Source of the DNA: Flavobacteriales bacterium
GTDB lineage: Bacteria > Bacteroidota > Bacteroidia > JACJYZ01
Direction of reading: 5' to 3'
DNA: 42,833 bases
NCBI GenBank assembly: GCA_020435415.1
Contig: JAGQZQ010000017.1
Location: 1 to 42,833, forward strand
Of this stretch, positions 4,539 to 41,705 are shown in pieces. Made by a program: the position numbers and the translations under genes. The stretch's first letter is position 1. Each line of letters begins with the position of its first letter. The notes below the pieces were generated by a model. The model was not told the origin of the DNA. It saw only the letters and a program-made list of their open reading frames with translations, and searched no databases.

Positions 4539-4590
4539 GTAGTACAAAGTAAGTATAAAAGTAGATAGTAGGTAGTCCTTAGTAGTTAAC

Positions 4591-4987
4591 GCGTTGACCA
4601 CTTTCCAAGATATACTGATTTGTCTTATTTTCAGATTTGGATATCCCTTGTTGTACATCGGGATGACAAGGTTACCATGCGTAATGGTTAGAATGATAAG
4701 AGTGCTTGAATGCCGTCATTCCTAAGTAAGGTGAATTTCGGTGGTTAGGCGAAGGTTGCACCTTCGTCTGTCTATCCCGTAGCTTTAAGCTACTTGCTTC
4801 ATCTTACCTTACAGTGCTGGTAGCTAAGGACGAATTCTCAGTAGAAAATACCAAAGCGGAACGCTTTGAAGATAATAGGACGAAGGTGCACCTGTCCCGG
4901 TATCGCAATGATCCGGGAACCTTCGCCCAACGCCTCGGTATTACGTTTACAGACTCAATATAATTTCCCATGCAAAGTGGTCAACGC
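4591..4987 (+). repeat. 397-bp hairpin-rich intergenic element, copy A
   Basis: It starts with GCGTTGACCACTTT and ends with AAAGTGGTCAACGC, so it has ~13-bp terminal inverted repeats. Internal hairpins are: a short arm GGCGAAGGTTGCACCTTCG (4748-4768), GTAGCTTTAAGCTAC, CAAAGCGGAACGCTTTG, and an extended arm (4879-4927) with a CCCGG...CCGGG insert. Copy C (41309-41705) is the same length and, reverse-complemented, differs at roughly twenty positions by eye plus the position of the insert. It has no ORF of note. It sits between the divergent meaB and glycosyltransferase genes and fills nearly all of the 4539-5026 gap. CCTTAGTAGTTA occurs on both flanks (4577-4588 and 4987-4998). Confidence 0.85.
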
Positions 4988-5011
4988 CTTAGTAGTTAGA
5001 CACGGGATTCC

Positions 5012-18519: not shown

Positions 18520-21500
18520 CTATTCCATCAACACGAGCCGGATCGTTGATACATTTCCATTGACTGTCAGTCTGGCGAGATACACCCCTGGTATCAGTCC
18601 ATGTTCATCCGGAGTGATCACCTGACGATGTTCACCTTTCTTCCGGAATCCATCTTCTACCACGGAGACGGTCTTACCAACCAGATCTACCAGTTCCAGT
18701 CTTACCCGGGCATCTTCCTTCAGGCCGTAGATCAACATGGCATTTGATCTGAACGGGTTCGGCCACGCTTTCAGGTCGGTGACCACGTTAGGAATTGTCG
18801 GACGCCCTGTGGTAATATCATCCGGAATATAGATGCTGTTGGAATCCACCATGAAGTCAAGCTCTGTGAAATCGCTGTCGTTTGCACTTACATTCACTTC
18901 ATAGGTACTATCCATTGGCAGACCGGGAATATCAACCCACAGATCATAATCACCGGGTTCGATGTTAAAGAACTCGTAGCGACCTGAACCATCGGTCTTG
19001 GTGTTTCCTTTCACCATACCGGCAGGTTTGGATCTCAGGGTGATGTCCACATCCGGGATCGGATCGCCGGTGATCACATCAAAGACACCCGCTTTATTGG
19101 TACCACCTTTGACAATGGTTCCCGCCAATCTACCCTGACCATTCTGGAGAGGCACTTCCACCAGGGTAATATCCTTGGAGGTACTGTCATCGCAAGACAG
19201 TGTGAATTGCGTGGCCGTATTCCACTGGAAGGTAGAATCGTGGAACGTATTCATGGTGCGCGGATACAGAATGGTATCGGTGCGTGCATGCAGAATGTAC
19301 GTTCCGGCAGGCAGGTTCGGGAAGCTATAGTTTCCTGAACCATCCGTATAGGTGGAGTCAACCGCCGGCATCACACCACCCGACATGTACTTCAGCACCT
19401 TCACCTTCAGTCCGGAAGCACCACCACCTGAATACTTCACTTGTCCGGTTAAGATCGGATCAGATCCGGTGAATGATACGGCCTGACCCATGGTAGCCGA
19501 ACAACCGTTCGCATCGGTAACTGTCACATTATGGGCTCCGGGGCAAAGGTTAATAGCAGTCTGCGTTGTTTGTGCAGACGGATCATCCCACAAGAAACCG
19601 TAAGGCGTGGCGCCACCTACCGGAGTTACCATAAGGGTACCATCACAGTAGCTTTGGCAAGACGCTGGTGTCTCACTGAAGGTCATGGTGATCTCTCCTG
19701 GTTCCATAATGGACACTGTATCCACCGAACTACAACCTGAACCGTCCGTTACCGTCACGTAGTACAAACCTTTGCACAGGTTCGTAGCTGTTTGTGTCGT
19801 TTGATTACCGGTCAACGGACCCCATTGATAAGCATACGGAGTAGTTCCACCCGACGGGTTTGCGGTAGCTGTTCCGTCGCAGGCACCAAAACAAGATGCA
19901 TCTGTTTTGCCAACTGTCAGTGACGGACCACCGGTTTCATTGATGATCACCACTACGCTATCCATGCAGCCATTGGCATCACTAACCATCACCAGGTAAT
20001 TACCACTGGTCAGATTATTAGCTGTGGCTGTGGTTTGGGAAGCAGCATTAGCCGGCCATTGGAAGGTGTATGGAGATACGCCACCGGTGACAGATATCGT
20101 ACCTGATCCGTTCGCACCACCACAAGTTGCGTTGCTGGTGGACGGGGTAAGGACGATATCCGAAGGCTCGGTGATCTCAACAGAGTCTGTTATGAAACAT
20201 CCGTTGTTATCAGTTACCGTGACGTGGTACCAGCCAGCGCAAAGGGCGTTGACACTTGCAGATGTGCTGTTGCTCAGATCATCCCACAGAATCGTGTGAG
20301 GTGCGGTACCACCGGAGAAGTTAACCGTGGCTGTACCGTTGCATGATGCATGACAAAGCACATCTGTTTTGTTAATGGACGTGATCACCATTCCCGGAGG
20401 ATCATTCAGGGTAATCGAATCCACCACACTACAACCGTTACTGCCGGTGACCGTCACATAGTACATGCCAGCACACAAACCGGTTGCCAGTTGAGTGTTC
20501 TGATTACCTGCATTGGCATCCCATTGGAAGGTATATGGCGGCACACCACCAGTGGCATTTACATTCGCATCACCATCACAAGCACCGGAACAATTCGGGT
20601 CATTGCCATTGACAGTGGTGATGATCGAGGTTGCCCCGCTGATCAGAACACTGTCTATAGCCATACAACCATTGTTGTCGGTGACAGTGACATGATAATT
20701 ACCAGGGCACAGTCCAAATGCTGAATCTGTGGTTTGCCCCTGCGGATCATCCCAGCTGTACAGATATGGAGCAGCGCCACCGGAAACCATTGCCCTGGCA
20801 AAGCCATTGCAGGCGCCGGCACACAGTTCATCTCCTTTATTGGTATTAATAACAATCGGGTTTGGTTGCATGATCTGCACTGAGTCTTCGGTAAAGCAAC
20901 CGTTGTTATCCGTTACTGTTACATGATACCATCCCATGCAAAGACCACCTACGGAATCAACCGTCGCAGAGCCGGCAGCGGCATCCCATTGGTAGCTGAA
21001 TGGCGGCACACCACCGGTCGGGTTCACTTTTGCAAAACCGTTACAGGTGCCGTTGCAGAGCAGATCACCTTTGTTAAATGCTGTGGTGAGCAATCCTGGT
21101 TCGGCAATGCTGATCGAGTCAACCGCCATGCAACCGTTATTGTCGGTCACCGTGACATAGTACATGCCTGTGCAAAGACCGAAGGCACTATCCACTGTTT
21201 GGTTACCGGCATTGGCATCCCATTGGAAAGAGTATGGGGCTACACCGCCGGTAGGAAGCACCTTGGCATAGCCATCGCATCCACCATTACATTGAGGTCC
21301 CATCACAGCACCAAAGCTGGTGATGACCGCAGATGGCTCCATGATCTCCACGGAGTCTGCCATGTAGCAACCGTTGTTATCGGTGACGGTCACATGGTAC
21401 CAACCGATGCAAAGGCCACCTACGGAATCAACCGTGGCTGAACCGGCATTGGAGTCCCACAAGAAGCTGTATGGTGGGGTACCACCGGTTGGGTTCACTT

Positions 21501-24500
21501 TTGCAAAACCATTGCATGAACCGGCACACAACACATCACCTTTGTTAAAGGTTGTCATGACGGCTGCAGGTTCTCCGATGAATACGCTATCTACATAAGT
21601 ACAGCCATTGTTATCGGAGATAGTCACAAGATAATTTCCTGTGCACAGATTGGTTGCCGTTTGGGTGGTTTGATAACCTGCGTTGATATCCCATTGGAAA
21701 GAATAGGGAGCAACGCCGCCTGAAGGATTCGCCATCGCACTTCCATCACAGCTTCCGGCACAAGCAGCCGCGTTAACCGGAGTAAATGCATTGGTGATTA
21801 CCGGTGGTTCCATGATCTCAACGGAGTCTGCCATGAAGCAACCATTGTTGTCGGTGATGGTCACATGGTACCAGCCGATGCAAAGACCACCTACGGAGTC
21901 AACAGTGGCTGATCCTGCATTGGAGTCCCATTGGAAAGTGTATGGTGCTACACCACCTGCCGGGTTCACTCTTGCAAAACCGTCACATGCTCCGGCACAC
22001 AGCACATCTCCTTTGTTGAAAGATGCATTAAGCAATCCGGGCTCATTGATGCTGATTGAGTCAACCGCAGTACAACCGTTGTTATCGGTTACGGTGACAT
22101 AGTACATGCCTGCGCAAAGGCCAGATGCACTATCTACTGTTTGGTAACCTGCGTTGATATCCCATTGGAAAGAGTATGGGGCTACACCGCCGGTAGGAAG
22201 CACCTTGGCATAGCCATCGCATCCACCATTACACTGAGGGCCCATTACCGCGCCGAAGCTGGTGATGACCGCAGATGGTTCCATGATCTCCACGGAGTCC
22301 GCCATGAAGCAGCCGTTGTTATCAGTCACGGTCACATGGTACCAGCCGATGCAAAGGCCACCTACGGAATCAACCGTGGCTGATCCTGCATTTGAGTCCC
22401 ATTGGAAAGTGTATGGTGCTACACCACCTGCAGGATTTACTTTTGCAAAACCGTTACAAGCGCCGGCGCACAACACATCTCCTTTGTTGAAGGATGCATT
22501 GAGCAATCCGGGTTCATTGATCGTGATTGAGTCAACCGCCGTACAACCGTTGTTATCGGTGACGGTGACGTAATACATGCCTGCACAAAGACCGGATGCA
22601 CTGTCAACAGTTTGATAACCTGCGTTGATATCCCATTGGAAAGAGTACGGAGCAACACCGCCGGTTGGAAGCACTTTGGCATAGCCATCACATCCACCGT
22701 TACATTGAGGGCCCATCACCGCACCGAAGCTGGTCATCACTGCAGATGGTTCCATGATCTCTACGGAATCAACTACAAAACATCCATTGTTATCAGTCAC
22801 CGAAATAAAATACCATCCTGCGCAAAGACCGAAGACAGAATCCACGGTTTGGTTCCCTGCATTGGCATCCCATTGGAAGGAATACGGAGGCACTCCTCCT
22901 GTGGGATTTACCTTTGCAAAACCATCGCATGCACCGGCGCACAATGCATCACCCTTATTAAAGATCGGATACATCGGCGTGGGTTCATTGATCATTGCAG
23001 AATCAACGATCATACAACCGTTGTTGTCAGTGATAGTCAATAGATACGTTCCTGCACAAAGTCCGCCCACCGAGTCTACGGTTTGACTGCCTGCATTGGA
23101 ATCCCACTGGAAGGTATAGGGTGCAACACCACCGGTAGGATTTGCCTTTGCACTGCCATCGCAGGATCCGGGACACATGGCACCATTGACAGGCGTCATG
23201 GCGTTCGTCAGAACGGAAGGTTCGGTGATGATAATACTGTTTGAAGACTGGCAACCATTGTTGTCGGTTACCGTGACAAAATAAGTTCCGGAACAAAGGC
23301 TGCCCACGGAGTCTACTGTCTGGCTTCCTGCGTTGGAATCCCATTGGAAGGAATACGGAGGCACTCCTCCACTTGGGTTTGCTTTTGCAAAACCATCACA
23401 AGCTCCGGAACACAGTGCATCACCGGAGTTAAATCCAATGGATAGTGCTGACGGTTCACCAACATCAACAGAATCAACTGCAATACAGCCGTTGTTGTCG
23501 GTTACGGTCACCAGGTAATGTCCGGCACAAAGACCGGTAGCTGTGTCGTTGGTTTGGTAACCGGCATTGATATCCCATTGAAAGCTGTAAGGTGGTGTTC
23601 CGGCGGTTGGCTGGGCCACACCGAATCCGTCGCAGGATCCGTTGCAAAGCACGTCGCCTTTGTCCATTCCCAAAGCAAGCGGACTGGGAGGATCATTGAT
23701 AAAGACCGTATCGCTGAAAGAACAACCGTTGTTATCGGTAACTGTATAAAGATAGAAACCAAGGCAAAGACTATTGACAGATACCGTGGTTGCATTACCG
23801 GCATTGGCATCCCAGAGATAACTATAAGGAGGTACGCCACCGGTTGGATTGATATTCGCATCGCCATCGCATGACCCAACACAAGTGAGATTATTTACGA
23901 TTGGACCTGCATTCAACAAACCAGGTTCATTGATATTTACAGAAGCCCAGGCAGAATCATTGTCGGCATCAGTTACCAGTACGTTGAAAAACCCACCAGC
24001 TAGTCCGACGGCCGTATCTGTGGTTTGGATGGAAGGGTCATCCCAATGATAACTATATGGTGGTGTTCCACCACTCGGGTACACTACAGCCCATCCATCG
24101 GAAGCGCCGTTACAAGTTACATGAACCGTATCGGTGATAGTCGCGGACAATGCCGGAGGACATGATGCAAACGTAATGCCTGCATTATTACCTCCATCCG
24201 TACTGGCGGAAGAATAACATGAAGCGCCGGAAAAGGCAATATCGCTCAGGTACATGTTATCCATGCACACTCTCTTTCCGGACAATGAGGTCAGGTTTGT
24301 TTGAGTGCCGGGGCTATCTGAATTGATCGTCACCTGAAATCCGACGTTATTTGTAGCGAAATCATTAAATGATTGTGTAGCACCGGCAGGGAAAGTGATA
24401 TATCCAGAATCTATTTCAAGTTTATTAAACTGATTGTCTCCGGTTGCCACAACCTGTCCTGAATAGAATGTGACTTCATTATAGGTGAGGTCTCCACCGA

Positions 24501-25230
24501 AGAAGTTCCCCTGTCCGGGTATCTTGTTGATCTCAATAACGGATTGTTCTGCATCAAAGGTCAGGCCTGTGGTGGATGACATATCCCAGGTATCATTGAT
24601 GCGCACATACGACGAATCCAGGGTCAGACTACGCGTAAGAGATTGAGACGCATGTCCGTCAAAAACAAAACACCGCAGGTAATATCCTTTGGTGTTGAAG
24701 TTTCCTTGATTAAGGATGATGTTCTTCAGTGTCTCCAGGTCACTTGCCAGCTCCCATTGCGCCGTACCGTTGAACCGGATATCGGCATCAAGGAGTTTGC
24801 TGTGTGTATCGATGATGTGATTTCCCGATGACCCGTTGAACTTTATCGTGCCATGCAGGTCGAGGGCCATGTTCGGATCAATGATCAGGGAACCTCCTAA
24901 TAAAAGGGTATCGCCATAGGCCTGACTGAATGTCGGAAAGTTAGCTACACCATTCCACTCCACCTTAGCGGCAAAGACATTGCCTGAAAGGTATACGGTA
25001 TCACCAGCCTGTGTAAACGAGTTCACATCGAATATCGCAGTATCACCCGCAGTGGGTGGTCCTGCGCCTGGTGCACCGCCTGAGGCGTTGGACCAGAAAG
25101 TTGGGGATACGCCATCCCATGTACCATTACCACCAACCCAATAATAGGTAGCGGCCGAGGCGATCATGGAAGAGAACAGGAGAAAAAAGAGGACAAGGGG
25201 GAGCTTAAATGCGGGTACACTCTGTTTCAT
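18520..25230 (-). CDS. Giant SprB-repeat, T9SS-secreted surface protein
   Basis: A 2236-aa predicted cell-surface protein. Order: signal peptide (to about residue 27), an N-terminal domain starting TYYWVGGNGTWDG and rich in beta strands (to ~355), about twenty SprB-type repeats of ~78 residues (consensus C-x-G-x-CDG-x-A ... PTGG-x-PPYSFQWD ... GLCAG-x-Y-VTVTDNNGC ... EP), two carboxypeptidase-regulatory-like beta-sandwiches (GSGNYSFPNLPAGTY and GSGRYEFFNIEPGDY), and a type A T9SS sorting domain (LKAWPNPFRSNAMLIYGL ... GVYLARLTVNGNVS). SprB itself is a gliding adhesin; adhesion is the likely role but gliding is not shown. ATG 25230 is chosen over the GTG at 25239 because the paralogue also starts MKQ. 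Confidence 0.9.
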   Translation of the reverse strand: MKQSVPAFKLPLVLFFLLFSSMIASAATYYWVGGNGTWDGVSPTFWSNASGGAPGAGPPTAGDTAIFDVNSFTQAGDTVYLSGNVFAAKVEWNGVANFPTFSQAYGDTLLLGGSLIIDPNMALDLHGTIKFNGSSGNHIIDTHSKLLDADIRFNGTAQWELASDLETLKNIILNQGNFNTKGYYLRCFVFDGHASQSLTRSLTLDSSYVRINDTWDMSSTTGLTFDAEQSVIEINKIPGQGNFFGGDLTYNEVTFYSGQVVATGDNQFNKLEIDSGYITFPAGATQSFNDFATNNVGFQVTINSDSPGTQTNLTSLSGKRVCMDNMYLSDIAFSGASCYSSASTDGGNNAGITFASCPPALSATITDTVHVTCNGASDGWAVVYPSGGTPPYSYHWDDPSIQTTDTAVGLAGGFFNVLVTDADNDSAWASVNINEPGLLNAGPIVNNLTCVGSCDGDANINPTGGVPPYSYLWDANAGNATTVSVNSLCLGFYLYTVTDNNGCSFSDTVFINDPPSPLALGMDKGDVLCNGSCDGFGVAQPTAGTPPYSFQWDINAGYQTNDTATGLCAGHYLVTVTDNNGCIAVDSVDVGEPSALSIGFNSGDALCSGACDGFAKANPSGGVPPYSFQWDSNAGSQTVDSVGSLCSGTYFVTVTDNNGCQSSNSIIITEPSVLTNAMTPVNGAMCPGSCDGSAKANPTGGVAPYTFQWDSNAGSQTVDSVGGLCAGTYLLTITDNNGCMIVDSAMINEPTPMYPIFNKGDALCAGACDGFAKVNPTGGVPPYSFQWDANAGNQTVDSVFGLCAGWYFISVTDNNGCFVVDSVEIMEPSAVMTSFGAVMGPQCNGGCDGYAKVLPTGGVAPYSFQWDINAGYQTVDSASGLCAGMYYVTVTDNNGCTAVDSITINEPGLLNASFNKGDVLCAGACNGFAKVNPAGGVAPYTFQWDSNAGSATVDSVGGLCIGWYHVTVTDNNGCFMADSVEIMEPSAVITSFGAVMGPQCNGGCDGYAKVLPTGGVAPYSFQWDINAGYQTVDSASGLCAGMYYVTVTDNNGCTAVDSISINEPGLLNASFNKGDVLCAGACDGFARVNPAGGVAPYTFQWDSNAGSATVDSVGGLCIGWYHVTITDNNGCFMADSVEIMEPPVITNAFTPVNAAACAGSCDGSAMANPSGGVAPYSFQWDINAGYQTTQTATNLCTGNYLVTISDNNGCTYVDSVFIGEPAAVMTTFNKGDVLCAGSCNGFAKVNPTGGTPPYSFLWDSNAGSATVDSVGGLCIGWYHVTVTDNNGCYMADSVEIMEPSAVITSFGAVMGPQCNGGCDGYAKVLPTGGVAPYSFQWDANAGNQTVDSAFGLCTGMYYVTVTDNNGCMAVDSISIAEPGLLTTAFNKGDLLCNGTCNGFAKVNPTGGVPPFSYQWDAAAGSATVDSVGGLCMGWYHVTVTDNNGCFTEDSVQIMQPNPIVINTNKGDELCAGACNGFARAMVSGGAAPYLYSWDDPQGQTTDSAFGLCPGNYHVTVTDNNGCMAIDSVLISGATSIITTVNGNDPNCSGACDGDANVNATGGVPPYTFQWDANAGNQNTQLATGLCAGMYYVTVTGSNGCSVVDSITLNDPPGMVITSINKTDVLCHASCNGTATVNFSGGTAPHTILWDDLSNSTSASVNALCAGWYHVTVTDNNGCFITDSVEITEPSDIVLTPSTSNATCGGANGSGTISVTGGVSPYTFQWPANAASQTTATANNLTSGNYLVMVSDANGCMDSVVVIINETGGPSLTVGKTDASCFGACDGTATANPSGGTTPYAYQWGPLTGNQTTQTATNLCKGLYYVTVTDGSGCSSVDTVSIMEPGEITMTFSETPASCQSYCDGTLMVTPVGGATPYGFLWDDPSAQTTQTAINLCPGAHNVTVTDANGCSATMGQAVSFTGSDPILTGQVKYSGGGASGLKVKVLKYMSGGVMPAVDSTYTDGSGNYSFPNLPAGTYILHARTDTILYPRTMNTFHDSTFQWNTATQFTLSCDDSTSKDITLVEVPLQNGQGRLAGTIVKGGTNKAGVFDVITGDPIPDVDITLRSKPAGMVKGNTKTDGSGRYEFFNIEPGDYDLWVDIPGLPMDSTYEVNVSANDSDFTELDFMVDSNSIYIPDDITTGRPTIPNVVTDLKAWPNPFRSNAMLIYGLKEDARVRLELVDLVGKTVSVVEDGFRKKGEHRQVITPDEHGLIPGVYLARLTVNGNVSTIRLVLME
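19465..24160 (-). repeat. Tandem SprB coding repeats, about 20 x 235 bp
   Basis: The middle of the giant gene is made of about twenty head-to-tail units of ~235 bp. Between roughly 20865 and 22745 the units alternate between two kinds (one with MGPQCNGGCDGYAKVLPTGG, the other with FNKGDVLCAGAC), giving a higher-order period of ~470 bp. The CTTGGCATAGCC word recurs near 21262, 22204 and 22674. Units in this block are nearly identical, which points to recent duplication or homogenisation. It is also a place where short-read assembly could collapse copies. Confidence 0.88.
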
Positions 25231-25306
25231 ATGCTGCACGTTGGTTACGGAGACCCTTATGTACGTCGCATCAATGAAAAGGTTTACGTATTAATGCATA
25301 TATAAC

Positions 25307-25748
25307 GCCAATGACCACATATTCCGGAGCGACGAAGTGAAAAAAAGTGAGGATGAAAGCATTTCGCTTCCATGTGATTCAGGACTTAATGGGAAGGCAG
25401 AAGGTGAGAGGGCAGAAGGCAGATGACCATATTAATCTGTACCGGGCCTGATGTTGGGTGAAGGTTCCCGGATAGCTCTACTCCCGGGACAGGTGTACCT
25501 TTGTCTTGTTATCTTCAAAGCGTTCCACTTTGGTATTTTCTACTGAGAACTCTTCTTCAGCTACCAGCACTGAAAGCTAAGATAAAGGAAGTAGCTTAAA
25601 GCTACAGGATAGACAGACGAAGGTGCAACCTTCGCCTAACATCAGATTACAGATCCCCTGCCTGTCCGGCGAGGCAGGGAATTTGTCTAAAACATACTCG
25701 TTTCTCAAACGAAGCCAATATGATTCGGCGACCTATATAGTCAACGTC
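25307..25748. repeat. Degenerate copy D of the hairpin-rich element
   Basis: The core 25452-25642 matches the centre of the 397-bp elements: GGTGAAGGTTCCCGG arm, AAAGCGTTCCACTTTGG hairpin, GTAGCTTAAAGCTAC and a short GACGAAGGTGCAACCTTCGCC arm. The outer parts differ. GCCAATGACCAC (25307-25318) and AGTCAACGTC (25739-25748) may be worn ends, which is inference. It lies between the two SprB-type genes and accounts for most of the 25231-25790 gap, together with a CCCTGCCT/AGGCAGGG hairpin (25656-25679) and TTAATTCTTAATTC words at 25749-25785. Confidence 0.65.
25656..25679. repeat. CCCTGCCT hairpin
   Basis: CCCTGCCT and AGGCAGGG are perfect 8-bp arms around GTCCGGCG. It lies ~110 nt beyond the stop of the 826-aa SprB gene. 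There is no T-run on the minus side, so it is not a convincing terminator. Confidence 0.5.
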
Positions 25749-25790: not shown

Positions 25791-28271
25791 CTATTCTATC
25801 AAAAGAAGCCTGGTGACCGAAACATTTCCGTCAACCGTGATCCTGGCGAAATACACACCGGGGATCATACCTGCTTGTCCGGAGTTGATGGTTTGCTTAT
25901 GGTCTCCTTTTTGCCTGAATCCTTCATCAACCAGAGATACCGTTCTTCCGACCATGTCCACGATCTCCAGCCTGACCTGTGCACTTTCCGGCAGTCTGTA
26001 TATGAGTGTGGTGTTCGAACTGAACGGGTTGGGGAATGCCTGAAGTACCACACCGGATGAAGGCATTGGAGGCAGACTGGTGGTGATATCATCCGGGATA
26101 TCGATGGCATTGGAATCCACCACGAAATCCATCTGCGTAAAAATGGTATCACTGGCCGTTACGGATACCTCCCAGGTACTGTCCATCGGCAGACCGGGAA
26201 TATCCACCCATAGGTCGTAGTCACCCGGTTCGATGTTGGAGAATTCATAATATCCTGATCCATTCGTTTTGGTTTCTCCTTTCATCATTCCGGCCGGCTT
26301 GGAGCGGATGACGATGTCCACATCGGGAATGGGGTCACCGAAGATCACATTGGTTTCACCCTTCTTGTTGGGGCCACGTCTGACAACTGTTCCGGACAAC
26401 TTTCCATCGCCGTTCTGCGGCGGAAACTCCACCAGGGTGATGTCTTTAGAGGTACTGTCATCACAATCTACGGTAAACTGTATGGCGTCGCTCCATCTGA
26501 ATACCGTGTCATGGAAAGTACTTACCGTTTGCGGGTATAGGGTTGTATCGGTACGAACATGAAGGATATAGTTACCGGAGGGCACAGCGGGGAAACTGTA
26601 ATTTCCCGAGCCGTCCGTGTAAACAGAATCCACGGCAGGCATGACGCCACCAGTCTTGAATTTCAACAGTCTTACTTTCAATCCGGAGGCCCCGCCACCG
26701 GAATAGTTCACCTGGCCTGATAACTTCGGATCTGCACCCGTACTGGTGAGGCCATAATTAAAGCTCACCATACATCCGATGGCGTCAGTTACAGAAACCG
26801 TATAATCGCCAGCACAAAGATTGGAAGCGGTTTGGGTGGTTTGTCCGTCAGGGTCACTCCACATATAAGTATAGGGAACCGAACCGCCGGTAACGTTCAC
26901 CATCAAAGAACCGTTGCAACTGCTCTGACAACTGGCCTGTGTTTCAGCGAAAATGTGAGCTATCGCCGTGGGCTCATTTAATGTTGCGGTGGCCCAGACC
27001 GTATCTTTATCGACATCGATCACGCGCACGGTGTAAGTGCCTGCAGTTAATCCTGTGGCCTTATTGGTCGTCTGTTGCTGGGCATCATCCCACAGATAGG
27101 AATAGGGCATTGTGCCACCACTGGCACTCACCGTTACAGAACCGTTATTGCCTCCGTTGCATGTTACATTCACCTTATTGGAAATGGTAGCACTAAGCGG
27201 AGCCGGGCATGGTGCGATCGTTACTCCGGTACAATTCGACTGCCCTGAATTCTTGGCATAACATGATCCACCGGAAAAAGCAATGTTGCTGAAGTTCATT
27301 CCCAATAGACATGTGCGTTTTCCTGACAAAGAGACTAACTGTGCCTTTGTACTCGAGCTTGATTGTATGGTTGTTTTTACACCGGGATTCTGTGATTCAA
27401 GTGTGCTGAAGCTTTGTGCCGCGGATGCCGGGATGGTGACCGTACCTGTATCTAGCTTAAGGAAATGGTATTGGTTACTTCCGGTTACGGTAAGCTGTGT
27501 GGCGTAAAAGGTCACATCGTGGTAAGCCAATCCGCCCCCGCGGAAATTCCCTTGGCCGGGAATCCTGACCACCTCGATAAGGGATGTACCCGGATCGAAA
27601 GTCAATCCGGCTGTTTGCGTCATATCCCAGGTTTCCGTAATGCGCACCAGAGATGTGTCGAGGGTAAGGGTTCGGATCAAACTTTGTAAACCGTGGCCAT
27701 CAAAAACATTACATCGCAGATAATACCCTTTGGTATGAAAACCTCCCTGCCTCAGGATGATGGTTTTCTGGGATTCCAGATCGCTCGAGAGATGCCATTG
27801 TGCATCACCGGCAAAGAGGATATCCGCATCCAGCAACTTCCCGTTGGTATGTATGAAATTGGTTCCGGAGAGGCCGTTGAACACGATGGTCCCGTGCATA
27901 TCCAGTGCCATGTTGGGGTCGATAAAAAAGCTTCCTCCAATAAAAAGGGTATCCGTCACCGCCTGACTGAATACAGGAAAATTGGAAACACCGCTCCATA
28001 TGACTTTGGCGGCATGCACGTTTCCACTGATAAATATGGTATCACCGGCCTGGGCAAAGGAGCCCGCATCAAACACAACCGTATCAGCCGCGGTGGGGGG
28101 ACCTGCACCCGGTGCGCCACCGGAAGCATTGGACCAGAACGTAGCCGAGCCGGCCATCCATTGGCCTTTGCCCCCTACCCAATAATAGGTATTGGCCGTA
28201 GCGACAAGGGAAGAAATGAGCAGAAAAAATAAAAGAAAAGAAAATCCGGAGGTGGGTAAATTCTGTTTCAT
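25791..28271 (-). CDS. SprB-repeat T9SS-secreted surface protein (short paralogue)
   Basis: An 826-aa paralogue of the giant protein at 18520-25230. It has the same plan: signal peptide, TYYWVGGKGQWMAG N-terminal domain, two SprB repeats (about residues 353-510), two regulatory-like beta-sandwiches (GSGNYSFPAVPSGNY and GSGYYEFSNIEPGDY) and a T9SS type A sorting domain (LQAFPNPFSSNTTLIYRL ... GVYFARITVDGNVSV). Its two repeats look like the first and last repeats of the giant protein. The start MKQNLPTSGF at 28271 matches its paralogue. It is likely exported by T9SS and anchored at the surface; the ligand is unknown. Confidence 0.9.
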   Translation of the reverse strand: MKQNLPTSGFSFLLFFLLISSLVATANTYYWVGGKGQWMAGSATFWSNASGGAPGAGPPTAADTVVFDAGSFAQAGDTIFISGNVHAAKVIWSGVSNFPVFSQAVTDTLFIGGSFFIDPNMALDMHGTIVFNGLSGTNFIHTNGKLLDADILFAGDAQWHLSSDLESQKTIILRQGGFHTKGYYLRCNVFDGHGLQSLIRTLTLDTSLVRITETWDMTQTAGLTFDPGTSLIEVVRIPGQGNFRGGGLAYHDVTFYATQLTVTGSNQYHFLKLDTGTVTIPASAAQSFSTLESQNPGVKTTIQSSSSTKAQLVSLSGKRTCLLGMNFSNIAFSGGSCYAKNSGQSNCTGVTIAPCPAPLSATISNKVNVTCNGGNNGSVTVSASGGTMPYSYLWDDAQQQTTNKATGLTAGTYTVRVIDVDKDTVWATATLNEPTAIAHIFAETQASCQSSCNGSLMVNVTGGSVPYTYMWSDPDGQTTQTASNLCAGDYTVSVTDAIGCMVSFNYGLTSTGADPKLSGQVNYSGGGASGLKVRLLKFKTGGVMPAVDSVYTDGSGNYSFPAVPSGNYILHVRTDTTLYPQTVSTFHDTVFRWSDAIQFTVDCDDSTSKDITLVEFPPQNGDGKLSGTVVRRGPNKKGETNVIFGDPIPDVDIVIRSKPAGMMKGETKTNGSGYYEFSNIEPGDYDLWVDIPGLPMDSTWEVSVTASDTIFTQMDFVVDSNAIDIPDDITTSLPPMPSSGVVLQAFPNPFSSNTTLIYRLPESAQVRLEIVDMVGRTVSLVDEGFRQKGDHKQTINSGQAGMIPGVYFARITVDGNVSVTRLLLIE

Positions 28272-29189: not shown

Positions 29190-31190
29190 TTATTTATAGG
29201 AGCGTTGTTTCAGCTCAATGTTTTCATACTTCAGTTCTTCCTTGTGAAGCACTGCATCGGCGGGTTCACCCTTGTGTTCCCAGGCGGCCACATAGGTAAA
29301 ACTGGCATCATCCCTTTTTGCTTCACCTTCTTCTGTTTGATGTTCTTCCCGGAAATGTCCTCCGCAGGATTCTTCACGTTGAAGTGCGTCCTTGCACATC
29401 AATTCACCCAGCTCCAGGAAGTCTGCCACACGTCCGGCTTTCTCCAGTTCCTGGTTGAACTCTTCTGCCTTACCGGGAACTTTCACATCCTTCCAGAACT
29501 CTTCACGGATGGCTTTGATCTCTTCCATGGCCTCTTTCAGTCCTGCGGCATTCCTTGCCATTCCGCATTTATCCCACATCACCTTTCCAAGGCGTTTGTG
29601 GAAATAGTCTACAGAATGTTTGCCATTGTTCGAAAGGAAATGGTTGATCTTTTCGCGCACCTGCTTTTCGGCTTCCACAAATTCAGGGCTATCTGTAGAG
29701 ATCGGTCCGGTACGGATATCGTTGGACAGGTATTCGCCGATGGTGTAAGGGATCACGAAATAGCCATCTGCCAGTCCCTGCATGAGCGCAGAGGCCCCCA
29801 GGCGGTTGGCGCCGTGATCGGAGAAGTTCGCTTCACCTAAGGCATAGCAACCCGGAATGGAAGTCATCAGGTTATAATCCACCCAGATTCCCCCCATCGT
29901 GTAATGCACGGCGGGATATATTTTCATCGGTGTGAAATACGGATTGTCATCCGTGATCTTTTCATACATCTGGAAAAGGTTGCCGTATTTGGTTTCCACC
30001 ACTTTACGGCCCATTTCAAGGATTTGCTCTTTCGTCGGGTTGTGGATACCGCCTGTATTGGCAGCTGTTTTTCCGTAGCGCTCAATAGCTGATGTGAAGT
30101 CAAGATAGACCGCCTCACCAGTGGCATTCACTCCGAATCCGGCATCACACCTTTCCTTGGCTGCTCTGGAAGCTACGTCCCGAGGCACGAGATTTCCGAA
30201 GGAAGGGTATCTCCGTTCCAGGTAATAGTCACGATCTTCTTCGGCGATCTCCGTAGGTTTCTTGCTGCCGGCGCGGATGGCTTCAGCATCTTCCTTTTTC
30301 TTCGGCACCCAGATTCTTCCGTCGTTCCTCAATGACTCGGACATCAGGGTCAGTTTCGATTGGTATTCACCTGAAACCGGAATACAGGTCGGATGGATCT
30401 GTGTATAGCACGGATTGGCAAAGTAGGCGCCCTTCCTATGTGCCTTCCATGCCGCGGTGCAGTTGGAACCCATGGCATTGGTAGACAAGAAGAATACATT
30501 TCCATATCCACCGCTACAGATCAGTACGGCATGTGCTGAGTGGCGCTCGATCTCGCCGGTGATCAGGTTACGTGCGATAATGCCTCGGGCCTTTCCATCA
30601 ACGATGACAAGGTCCAGCATCTCATGGCGGTTATACATCTTCACCTTTCCCTTACCTATCTGACGGCTTAATGCAGAGTACGCACCCAATAACAACTGCT
30701 GTCCGGTCTGACCTTTTGCATAAAAAGTTCTGGAAACCTGTACACCACCGAAAGAGCGGTTGTCGAGCAATCCACCGTATTCTCTTGCGAAAGGCACCCC
30801 CTGAGCCACACACTGGTCGATGATACTGGCGGACACTTCGGCCAGCCGGTACACGTTGGCTTCCCGGGAACGGTAGTCGCCCCCTTTTACCGTATCATAA
30901 AAGAGTCTGAATACGCTATCCCCATCGTTCTGGTAATTTTTTGCGGCATTGATTCCTCCCTGGGCAGCAATGGAGTGAGCACGCCTGGGGCTATCCTGAA
31001 AGCAGAAGGCTTTTACATTATAGCCCAACTCCGCCAATGAGGCGGCTGCTGAAGCACCTGCAAGGCCGGTACCCACAACGATCACATCAATGAGTCGTTT
31101 ATTGGCCGGGCTTACAAGCGGAACGTGGCTCTTGTGATCTTTCCACTTTGTTTCCAGCGGACCTTCGGGAATTCTTGAGTTCAATGCCAT
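29190..31190 (-). CDS. sdhA: Succinate dehydrogenase / fumarate reductase flavoprotein subunit
   Basis: A 666-aa flavoprotein that oxidises succinate to fumarate. The FAD-binding Rossmann motif is [16 protein letters not shown] (residues 35-50), and the histidine expected to hold FAD covalently is in [14 protein letters not shown] (His72). Later conserved blocks include [31 protein letters not shown] in shorter pieces, [22 protein letters not shown] and the capping-domain [10 protein letters not shown]. The frame is open to 31274, but those 28 residues overlap sdhC and are not family-like, so ATG 31190 is preferred. It lies 22 nt after sdhC. Confidence 0.96.
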
Positions 31191-40239: not shown

Positions 40240-40569
40240 GCGTTGACCACTTACTTTCCGCATTCATGGTACGATTACCGAATTGGGAAACTGATGTGTT
40301 GGGCGAAGGTTGCACCTTCGTCCTATTATATTCAAAGCGTTCCGCTTTAGTATTTTGTACTTTGAACGATACCTGTCCTTGAGCTGAGTGCAGAAAGTAG
40401 CTTAAAGCTACAAGATAGACAGACGAAGGTGCACCTGTCCCGGTATCGCAATGATCCGGGAACCTTCGCCTAACCACCGAGTTTGCCTTACCGCCCTGAC
40501 AGGGAAGTCAAATCTACAACCAAAGCGCATCATGCATTCCACCGATTCATTTTAATAAGTGGTCAATGC
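40240..40569 (-). repeat. Hairpin-rich intergenic element, copy B (330 bp)
   Basis: It is bounded by GCGTTGACCAC (40240-40250) and GTGGTCAATGC (40559-40569). The core 40300-40480 closely matches copy C in the same orientation: short arm (40310-40322 region), AAAGCGTTCCGCTTT hairpin, GTAGCTTAAAGCTAC, then the extended arm with CCCGG...CCGGG. The outer parts, especially on the right, differ from A and C and are shorter. No ORF is supported. Together with 40076-40239, where I see nothing clear, it fills the gap between lemA and the barrel gene. Strand is set relative to copy A as plus. Confidence 0.8.
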
Positions 40570-40582
40570 ATTAATAAAATAA

Positions 40583-41221
40583 TTAAAGAAATATACCCAG
40601 CTGGATGGCCACCCTGGGTGTGACGCCGGTATAACTGAAATCCCACAGATCACCTTTACCTCTGTGTCCGTTCACATCGCTGTACTTTATTCCTCCCCCG
40701 ACGGACACATCTGAGATCACCCTTTGGGAAATGACAAATCGGGCGCCAAAGGTGATGCCGCCGTTGAATGTCTTGATCTTCTCATTTACATCATACTCGA
40801 AATAATCCACGTAGCCCAGATCGTTGGTATATGAGTAACGCGTCACGTCCCGCTGAACATAACCGGACACCAGGTAAGGCGCGAAAAATGCACCGGCCTT
40901 CTTGATCCTGCCATCTTCCATTCCGAAATACATCCTTCTTTGAAGCTCCAGGAACACACCGGTCCTGTCATTGCCATCGGCGTCGTTCAGTGTAACGCCC
41001 AGATTAGCCATCCAACTGTTCGCTCCTGAGACGTTCAGGCGTTCCGCACCCACCATGAAAGTATTCGTGGCAAAGTATAAGGGACTGTGAACAAAAGTCC
41101 ACCGGACATTATGGTCTGTTGAATCCTGAGCTTTTGAAGAAGATGCGCAAAGGCTTATGCAAGCGGTTAATCCTATCAGATATCCCTTCATGCGGGATGT
41201 TTTTCCTGGATATTGTTTCAT
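40583..41221 (-). CDS. Outer-membrane beta-barrel-like protein
   Basis: A ~212-aa exported protein that I cannot place in a named family. The signal peptide is MKGYLIGLTACISLCASSSKA, preceded by a possible ten-residue extension (MKQYPGKTSR). The mature part has repeated amphipathic strands typical of small porin-like barrels: WMANLGVTLNDADGNDRTGVFLELQRRMYFG, FFAPYLVSGYVQRD, FNGGITFGARFVISQRVISDVSVGGGIKYSD, ending in PRVAIQLGIFL with a terminal hydrophobic residue. The frame is open to 41326, but that reaches into repeat copy C. ATG 41221 or ATG 41191 is the likely start. It is bracketed by copies B and C. Confidence 0.72.
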   Translation of the reverse strand: MKQYPGKTSRMKGYLIGLTACISLCASSSKAQDSTDHNVRWTFVHSPLYFATNTFMVGAERLNVSGANSWMANLGVTLNDADGNDRTGVFLELQRRMYFGMEDGRIKKAGAFFAPYLVSGYVQRDVTRYSYTNDLGYVDYFEYDVNEKIKTFNGGITFGARFVISQRVISDVSVGGGIKYSDVNGHRGKGDLWDFSYTGVTPRVAIQLGIFL

Positions 41222-41308
41222 TTGGATTGGTTTTATTTCATAACGGTGCGGTAAACGTAAAGGTCTGCTTATTCCGAATTTCCACAAACCTTTTTTGCAT
41301 TTCATTAC

Positions 41309-41705
41309 GCATTGACCACTTTGCATGGGAAGTTATATCGAGTCTGTAAATGGCAATACCGAGGTGTTGGGCGAAGGTTGCACCTTCGTCCTGTTATCTT
41401 CAAAGCGTTCCCCATTGGTATTTTCTACTGAGAGTTCTTCCTCAGTTACCAGCACTGTAAGCTAAGATGAAGCAAGTAGCTTAAAGCTACGGGATAGACA
41501 GACGAAGGTGCACCTGTCCCGGTATCGCAATGATCCGGGAACCTTCGCCTAACCACCGAAATTCACCTTACTTAGGAATGACAGCATTCAAGCACTCTTA
41601 TCATTCTAACCATTACGCATAGTAACCTTGTCATCCCGATGTACAACAAGGATATCTAAATCTGAAAACAAGACAAATCAGTACATCTTGGAAAGTGGTC
41701 AACGC
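41309..41705 (-). repeat. 397-bp hairpin-rich intergenic element, copy C
   Basis: It is bounded by GCATTGACCACTTT and AAAGTGGTCAACGC. Reverse-complemented it matches copy A (4591-4987) over its full 397 bp with about twenty differences by eye, except that the 28-nt CCCGG...CCGGG hairpin insert lies in the opposite arm. It occupies the space between the barrel gene and the last, rightward gene. Flanks: CATTA occurs close to both ends (41303-41307 and 41704-41709 region), but a true target duplication is uncertain. Confidence 0.85.

Follow-up and report, generated by a model that had tools for sequence, protein, structure and literature searches.

The window, a stretch of 42,833 nt, is one contig of the 3.48-Mb, 194-contig draft genome that we surveyed as a whole, and it carries four two-armed elements: A (4748-4927, +), D (25457-25636), B (40302-40470) and C (41370-41549). 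One arm (T-arm) adjoins TGTCTATC...GTAGCTTTAAGCTAC and has the outward end CCTAAC; the other (K-arm) adjoins CAAAGCGTTCCGCTTTG and has the outward end CCCAAC. Arms come in a short form of 21 nt, GGCGAAGGTT|GCACCTTCGTC, and in a long form of 49 nt that adds CCCGGATCATTGCGATACCGGGACAGGT at the bar, which amounts to a clean 28-nt difference at a single position. A and D combine a long K-arm with a short T-arm, B and C a long T-arm with a short K-arm. A reading of the sequence without database searches (the sequence-only reading) had placed the four elements at these positions, with the insert in the CCCAAC-side arm of A and D and in the CCTAAC-side arm of B and C, and we find the same arrangement.

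In A, the short T-arm (GTTAGGCGAAGGTTGCACCTTCGTC) lies at 4744-4768 (+) and the long K-arm, with a GTTG foot at its outer end, at 4879-4931 (-); the 28-nt insert of the latter (4890-4917, -) has the loop CATTGCGATA. Inserts with the same letters as that of A occupy the long T-arms of B (arm 40422-40474, -; insert 40433-40460, -) and C (arm 41501-41553, -; insert 41512-41539, -), whose short K-arms are found at 40298-40322 (+) and 41366-41390 (+), respectively. D, with the loop ATAGCTCTACT, has its long K-arm at 25453-25505 (+), with a mutated stem (GGTGAAGG / CTTTGTC), and its short T-arm at 25616-25640 (-). The loop of the D insert (25467-25494, +) differs from those of A, B and C, as had been noticed before (AGCTCTACT versus CATTGCGATA). 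A 247-amino acid open reading frame without a Pfam match (40583-41326, -) lies exactly between B and C. Elsewhere in the window, a very large SprB-repeat protein (18520-25239, -) with 18 SprB stretches, a Por secretion tail and alternating 234/237-bp repeats neighbours a smaller SprB-repeat protein (25791-28271, -); proteins of this kind are in keeping with Bacteroidota.

A, B and C are each set within a larger element that the sequence-only reading, although right on the three units themselves, had missed, together with the connection to a transposase gene described below. GCGTTGACCACTTT/A ends surround A, B, C and further copies and match those of an IS982-family element of this genome. The miniature inverted-repeat element (MITE) around A spans 4591-4987, with the 14-nt ends GCGTTGACCACTTT at 4591-4604 and 4974-4987; that around B spans 40240-40569 (IS982-like ends GCGTTGACCACTTA / GCATTGACCACTTA) and that around C, likewise with IS982-like ends, 41309-41705. 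The IS982-family element has two open-ended coding pieces, which match the IS982 transposase model in opposite parts, and the three MITEs share its terminal repeats and contain no transposase gene. An 11-nt direct repeat, CTTAGTAGTTA, is present on each side of A, and B and C have no clear duplication. Judged from this layout, an IS982-type MITE evidently took up the two-armed unit, which then multiplied along with it. The terminal repeat of one IS982-family element lies at an end of contigs C21, C35, C36, C55, C59, C97, C101, C130, C133 and C138, which points to several copies of this element at which the assembly is broken. Some MITEs and hairpins have TAGTAGTTAGTAGATAG-type intergenic runs next to them (4560-4590 and 4988-5000 in the window; L022 around 860-960), perhaps a preferred target or a further family of repeats.

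The centres of A to D align in the forward direction only, with global alignment scores of 49.5-94, whereas the reverse complement scores 0.5-5. This rules out a simple inversion, be it of the element or of its centre, the centres being collinear in all four, as the sequence-only reading had also concluded. Moreover, A and C have 112 nt of outer flank in common at 98% identity (on the T-side in C), so that both edges of any exchanged piece would lie close to the arm.

The family comprises about 65 arms in the genome, 16 of which are long, and their foot reads GTTA, GTTG or GTTC. Eighteen pairs form inward-facing two-armed dimers: half of these (9 of 18) carry no insert, the other nine carry one and none carries two. 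If a quarter of the arms were long and arms were independent, 1.1 double-long dimers would be expected, so that the observed zero is not significant. The classes with the insert in the K-arm or in the T-arm both exist, as had been described, and the insert-free state is a third one that the earlier two-class picture lacked. Presence or absence of the insert varies in the same way in about ten more elements of the T/K type and in two other sub-families, and compensatory stem variants occur among the arms (GGCGTAGGCTGYGCCTACGTC at C137). The 27-mer of the insert has nine exact occurrences in the 3.48 Mb, each within an arm, as compared to zero control hits; the genome contains no copies with one to three mismatches. 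The nine letter-identical inserts occupy at least five host contexts, with centres that differ by up to 46% (C versus the element on C16), and the sole T-arm copies are those of B and C, at a distance of 1 kb. Further long arms carry other loops, among them AGCTCTACT, CGCTTTGCT, CGTTCTACT, TCCTGCGGT and CACAACGATA.

The state of the insert does not follow the kinship of the elements. With the arms removed, the centres of A, C and the C24 element are 93-95% identical, and the three carry a K-insert, a T-insert and no insert, respectively. The centres of D and the C80 element are 94% identical and their insert alleles differ, and B and C share the T-insert at 77% centre identity. The four states require 7 changes on a tree built from 13 centres, compared to a mean of 6.2 after shuffling, that is, they do not cluster; the tree is unrooted and most of its branches are weak, and gain and loss are indistinguishable on it. 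The nine identical inserts sit in hosts whose centre identity goes down to 54-59%, and the chance of 28 identical positions under host divergence is about 1e-7. This identity is unlikely to be due to a constrained loop, since loop sequences vary without restriction among the other long arms. Taken together, the comparisons support an insert that moves independently of its element, in agreement with the decoupling proposed in the sequence-only reading. Because the state is unclustered on the centre tree and near-identical centres show three states, the classes are not old, fixed subfamilies, the outcome of a genome-wide survey that would have spoken against that proposal. The arm states evidently changed after or during the spread of the MITE.

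Other sub-families vary in the same manner. Among three arms with a similar outer flank (TGATGTGGAGGTTC), that at C1:116885 is insert-free, that at C1:85558 has the CATTGCGATA insert and that at C63:14 a CGTTCTACT insert. In the C16 element, which is related to this trio, the insert lies in the opposite arm and adjoins the sub-family's own GTACC rather than the GCACC of the donor, a difference of one base only. The twins C137:2579 and C137:2742, whose centres are nearly the same, are set apart by the insert and by point changes. The loop CGCTTTGCT is restricted to C137:2419 and C137:2742, about 300 nt apart. As neighbours (B and C; C137:2419 and C137:2742) have alleles in common, the distribution suggests that nearby copies act as donors.

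These data also bear on whether the 28-nt hairpin might itself be mobile, as a separate mini-hairpin strictly specific for the arm apex. Such an element would produce what is seen: nine identical copies, all at the same exact position of diverged arms, and a clean presence or absence without footprint. However, no copy exists outside arms in the genome, apart from one weak 1-mismatch match to a looser pattern at C67, and long alleles replace one another (C63 versus C1:85558), unlike what insertion alone would do. To our knowledge, no element of this size with such an apex-specific mechanism has been described. We therefore do not favour this option, which had been among those raised from the sequence, and regard it as very improbable, given that each of the nine identical inserts is found within an arm of the family. 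The least probable of the readings weighed here is that short-read assembly fused halves that belong to separate repeat copies. The assembly is a draft in which C15, C63, C99 and C148 have an end within such elements; chimeric repeat joins are improbable, though least so for copy C. Against this reading, one 42.8-kb contig holds A, B, C and D together; unique flank begins about 70-110 nt from the inserts of A and B, a distance that ordinary reads span; and C137 and the GTTC sub-family independently show the same pattern.

A change between the two arms of one element, by fold-back template switching or by nested inversions, would constitute a true switch. Folded as single-stranded DNA, A is 5.5 standard deviations more stable than shuffled sequences, and in the predicted fold both arms pair while the insert forms a separate bulging hairpin. 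Template switching between the arms of inverted repeats is a well-documented process that homogenizes arms or inverts spacers (PMC8604942). No spacer is inverted here, however, and none of the 18 dimers has two long arms, although the latter is not decisive with 1.1 expected by chance; in addition, the same allele in different elements would be left unexplained. We regard this route as distinctly improbable. That single loci switch state is likewise not supported: independent gains and losses in copies suffice, and a dedicated switch at single loci would not be needed.

Three genes in the genome, on C30, C55 and C140, score above the cut-off of NCBIfam NF047646 (REP-associated tyrosine transposase, RAYT). 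The gene on C30 (29382-29945, -) reaches 111 bits at a cut-off of 80 and encodes a protein of 188 amino acids in which NHIH and YIHNNP are present and WT stands in place of WQ. Compared to the characters of RAYT subclass 2.6 (NH[LIV]H, WQ, YIH[QN]NP and about 179 amino acids), this fits a RAYT of the HuH/Y1 type that would be subclass 2.6-like. An inward-facing pair of arms of the form GTTAGGCGAAGGTTGYACCTTCGTCTGNYTATCYTGTAGC...GCTAC flanks the gene on each side (at 29197 and 29317, and at 30096 and 30216), and all of these arms are short. The C55 gene has another family of inverted hairpins on each side, GCTGGCGCGGACGTCCCGTCCGGGC (L106:1190-1335 and 1991-2016), and the C140 gene has the hairpin CTAGCGCGGATTTGCAATCCG upstream, which is related to the C55 family; this fits each RAYT having its own hairpins. 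Subclass 2.6 is described as mostly from Bacteroidetes, flanked by 'atypical secondary structures' with copies elsewhere in the genome (PMC6006769). The two-armed elements are thus best read as putative REPIN-like dimers of the hairpins of the C30 RAYT, a link drawn from one locus (C30), with similar dimers in one other genome that has no detectable RAYT. The arm occurs in none of 59 other genomes of the same class that were searched, and matches were found in two other draft genomes, a Bacteroidetes metagenome-assembled genome and one labelled Helicobacteraceae. The former (JABDGY01), a draft in which no RAYT gene was detected, contains a minimal dimer, arm-GTAGCTTTAAGCTAC-arm, of about 90 nt (L132:3477-3565, L138:1496-1583).

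A RAYT with matching flanking hairpins raises the question of whether the enzyme itself exchanges arms, with a HuH transposase cutting single-stranded arms and joining them to others such that whole arms are swapped as cassettes. E. coli TnpAREP is active on single-stranded REP in vitro, which it cleaves and recombines (PMC8266576), and in the present genome the changes stay within the 21/49-nt arm while the bases just outside (GTTA/GTTG, TG/CT) are locus-specific. On the other hand, we found no report of such activity for subclass 2.6, the arms that flank the RAYT gene are all short, and GTACC instead of the donor's GCACC at C16 hints, by its one base, that less than a whole arm moved. RAYT-catalysed exchange therefore appears rather unlikely. 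A more general idea, according to which RAYT-type arms are exchangeable cassettes and the RAYT or an arm-specific process moves the 28-nt nested hairpin between apices genome-wide, with alleles spreading independently of the elements, is unlikely as well, though the least so of the alternatives.

The explanation that we favour, with a probability of about 0.6, is a short-patch, homology-driven exchange between dispersed arms of RAYT-linked, MITE-carried, REPIN-like dimers. According to this model, the hairpins belonging to the C30 RAYT would have formed dimers, many of which would then have spread further inside a MITE that an IS982-family transposase could mobilize. With nearly the same 21-nt arm in either half of the element and at some 65 places, the genome would offer a substrate for exchange. 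The interiors of arms would be copied by ectopic gene conversion or by template switching of a polymerase, acting on the half-arms, of about 10 nt each, that flank the insert, and in this way a recent insert allele (loop CATTGCGATA) may have been copied into at least nine arms, T or K, leaving centres and flanks untouched. As both halves bear the same arm sequence, the insert could land on either side. We infer conversion or template switching as the route and the RAYT as the original mobilizer. Half-arms of this length are short for RecA-type conversion, so that a replication template switch or an enzyme may be needed. Exchange between dispersed arms would account for all of the data, including the replacement of one long allele by another. 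Gene conversion between arms had already been put forward from the sequence and remains the best account; exchange with other genomic copies fits better than exchange within an element, because half of the elements are insert-free, none has two inserts and no spacer is inverted. Slippage fails to produce the short arm, since the deletion junction has a microhomology of only 1 nt; a precise slippage deletion between AGGT repeats would leave GAAGGTGCACC, which is present in no arm, and the short arms read GAAGGTTNNACC or close variants. The thought that REPs undergo conversion is not recent; whether they evolve by gene conversion is asked by the title of Higgins et al. (1988), as given in the reference list of PMC3116915.

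The mechanism by which REPs disseminate is still called poorly understood (PMC8266576). The 28-nt apex allele, which near-identical copies either have or lack, is a natural marker showing that arms evolve independently of their carrier dimer, at short tracts, and it makes arm-to-arm exchange measurable by long reads. This bears on how REP-type hairpins disperse and stay homogeneous, and it documents a case of a RAYT-type dimer apparently captured by an IS982-type MITE.

Several other identities were rejected. Canonical GTAG REPs have a GT[AG]G foot 5' of the palindrome, and the foot here is GTTA, GTTG or GTTC. CGTC-tagged REPs are characterized by an unpaired CGTC, AT first stem pairs and a CCA-like tail; in the present arms the CGTC lies mostly in the stem, and the other characters are absent. 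The window has no Rfam match to a known structured RNA. The GTTRGGC/GCCYAAC boxes are suggestive of integron attC sites but point outward; in attC sites, the boxes have the reverse orientation.

Among known systems, the MITEs resemble those of the IS982 family in that their 14-nt ends are common with the genome's IS982-family element and no transposase gene lies inside; they differ in enclosing a RAYT-type dimer and in showing a putative target duplication at A only. TIRtron-derived TIR dimers (Di Nocera 2013, PMC3733652) similarly comprise a Y1 transposase gene between self-complementary, double-palindromic inverted repeats and a dispersed dimer family, whereas the protein described here matches the REP-associated family and the GGGGWSAS of many TIRs is absent from the arm. 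The hairpins of RAYT/TnpAREP subclass 2.6, as far as the consulted part of PMC6006769 describes them, are alike in gene size and motifs, in flanking hairpins without a GT[AG]G foot and in dispersed copies. They differ by WQ compared to WT here and by the location of many of our dimers inside an IS982-type MITE; nested-hairpin alleles in one arm, as seen here, were not met in that part. REPINs (Bertels and Rainey 2011, PMC3116915) are likewise dispersed units of two inverted hairpin arms and a spacer, with conserved ends and a less conserved spacer. Correspondingly, the 18 inward-facing dimers occur as a dispersed unit, and the outer flanks of the C137 twins are unrelated. Compared to REPINs, the present dimers have a GTTN rather than a GTAG foot, a spacer of about 60-170 nt, and short and long alleles of their arms.
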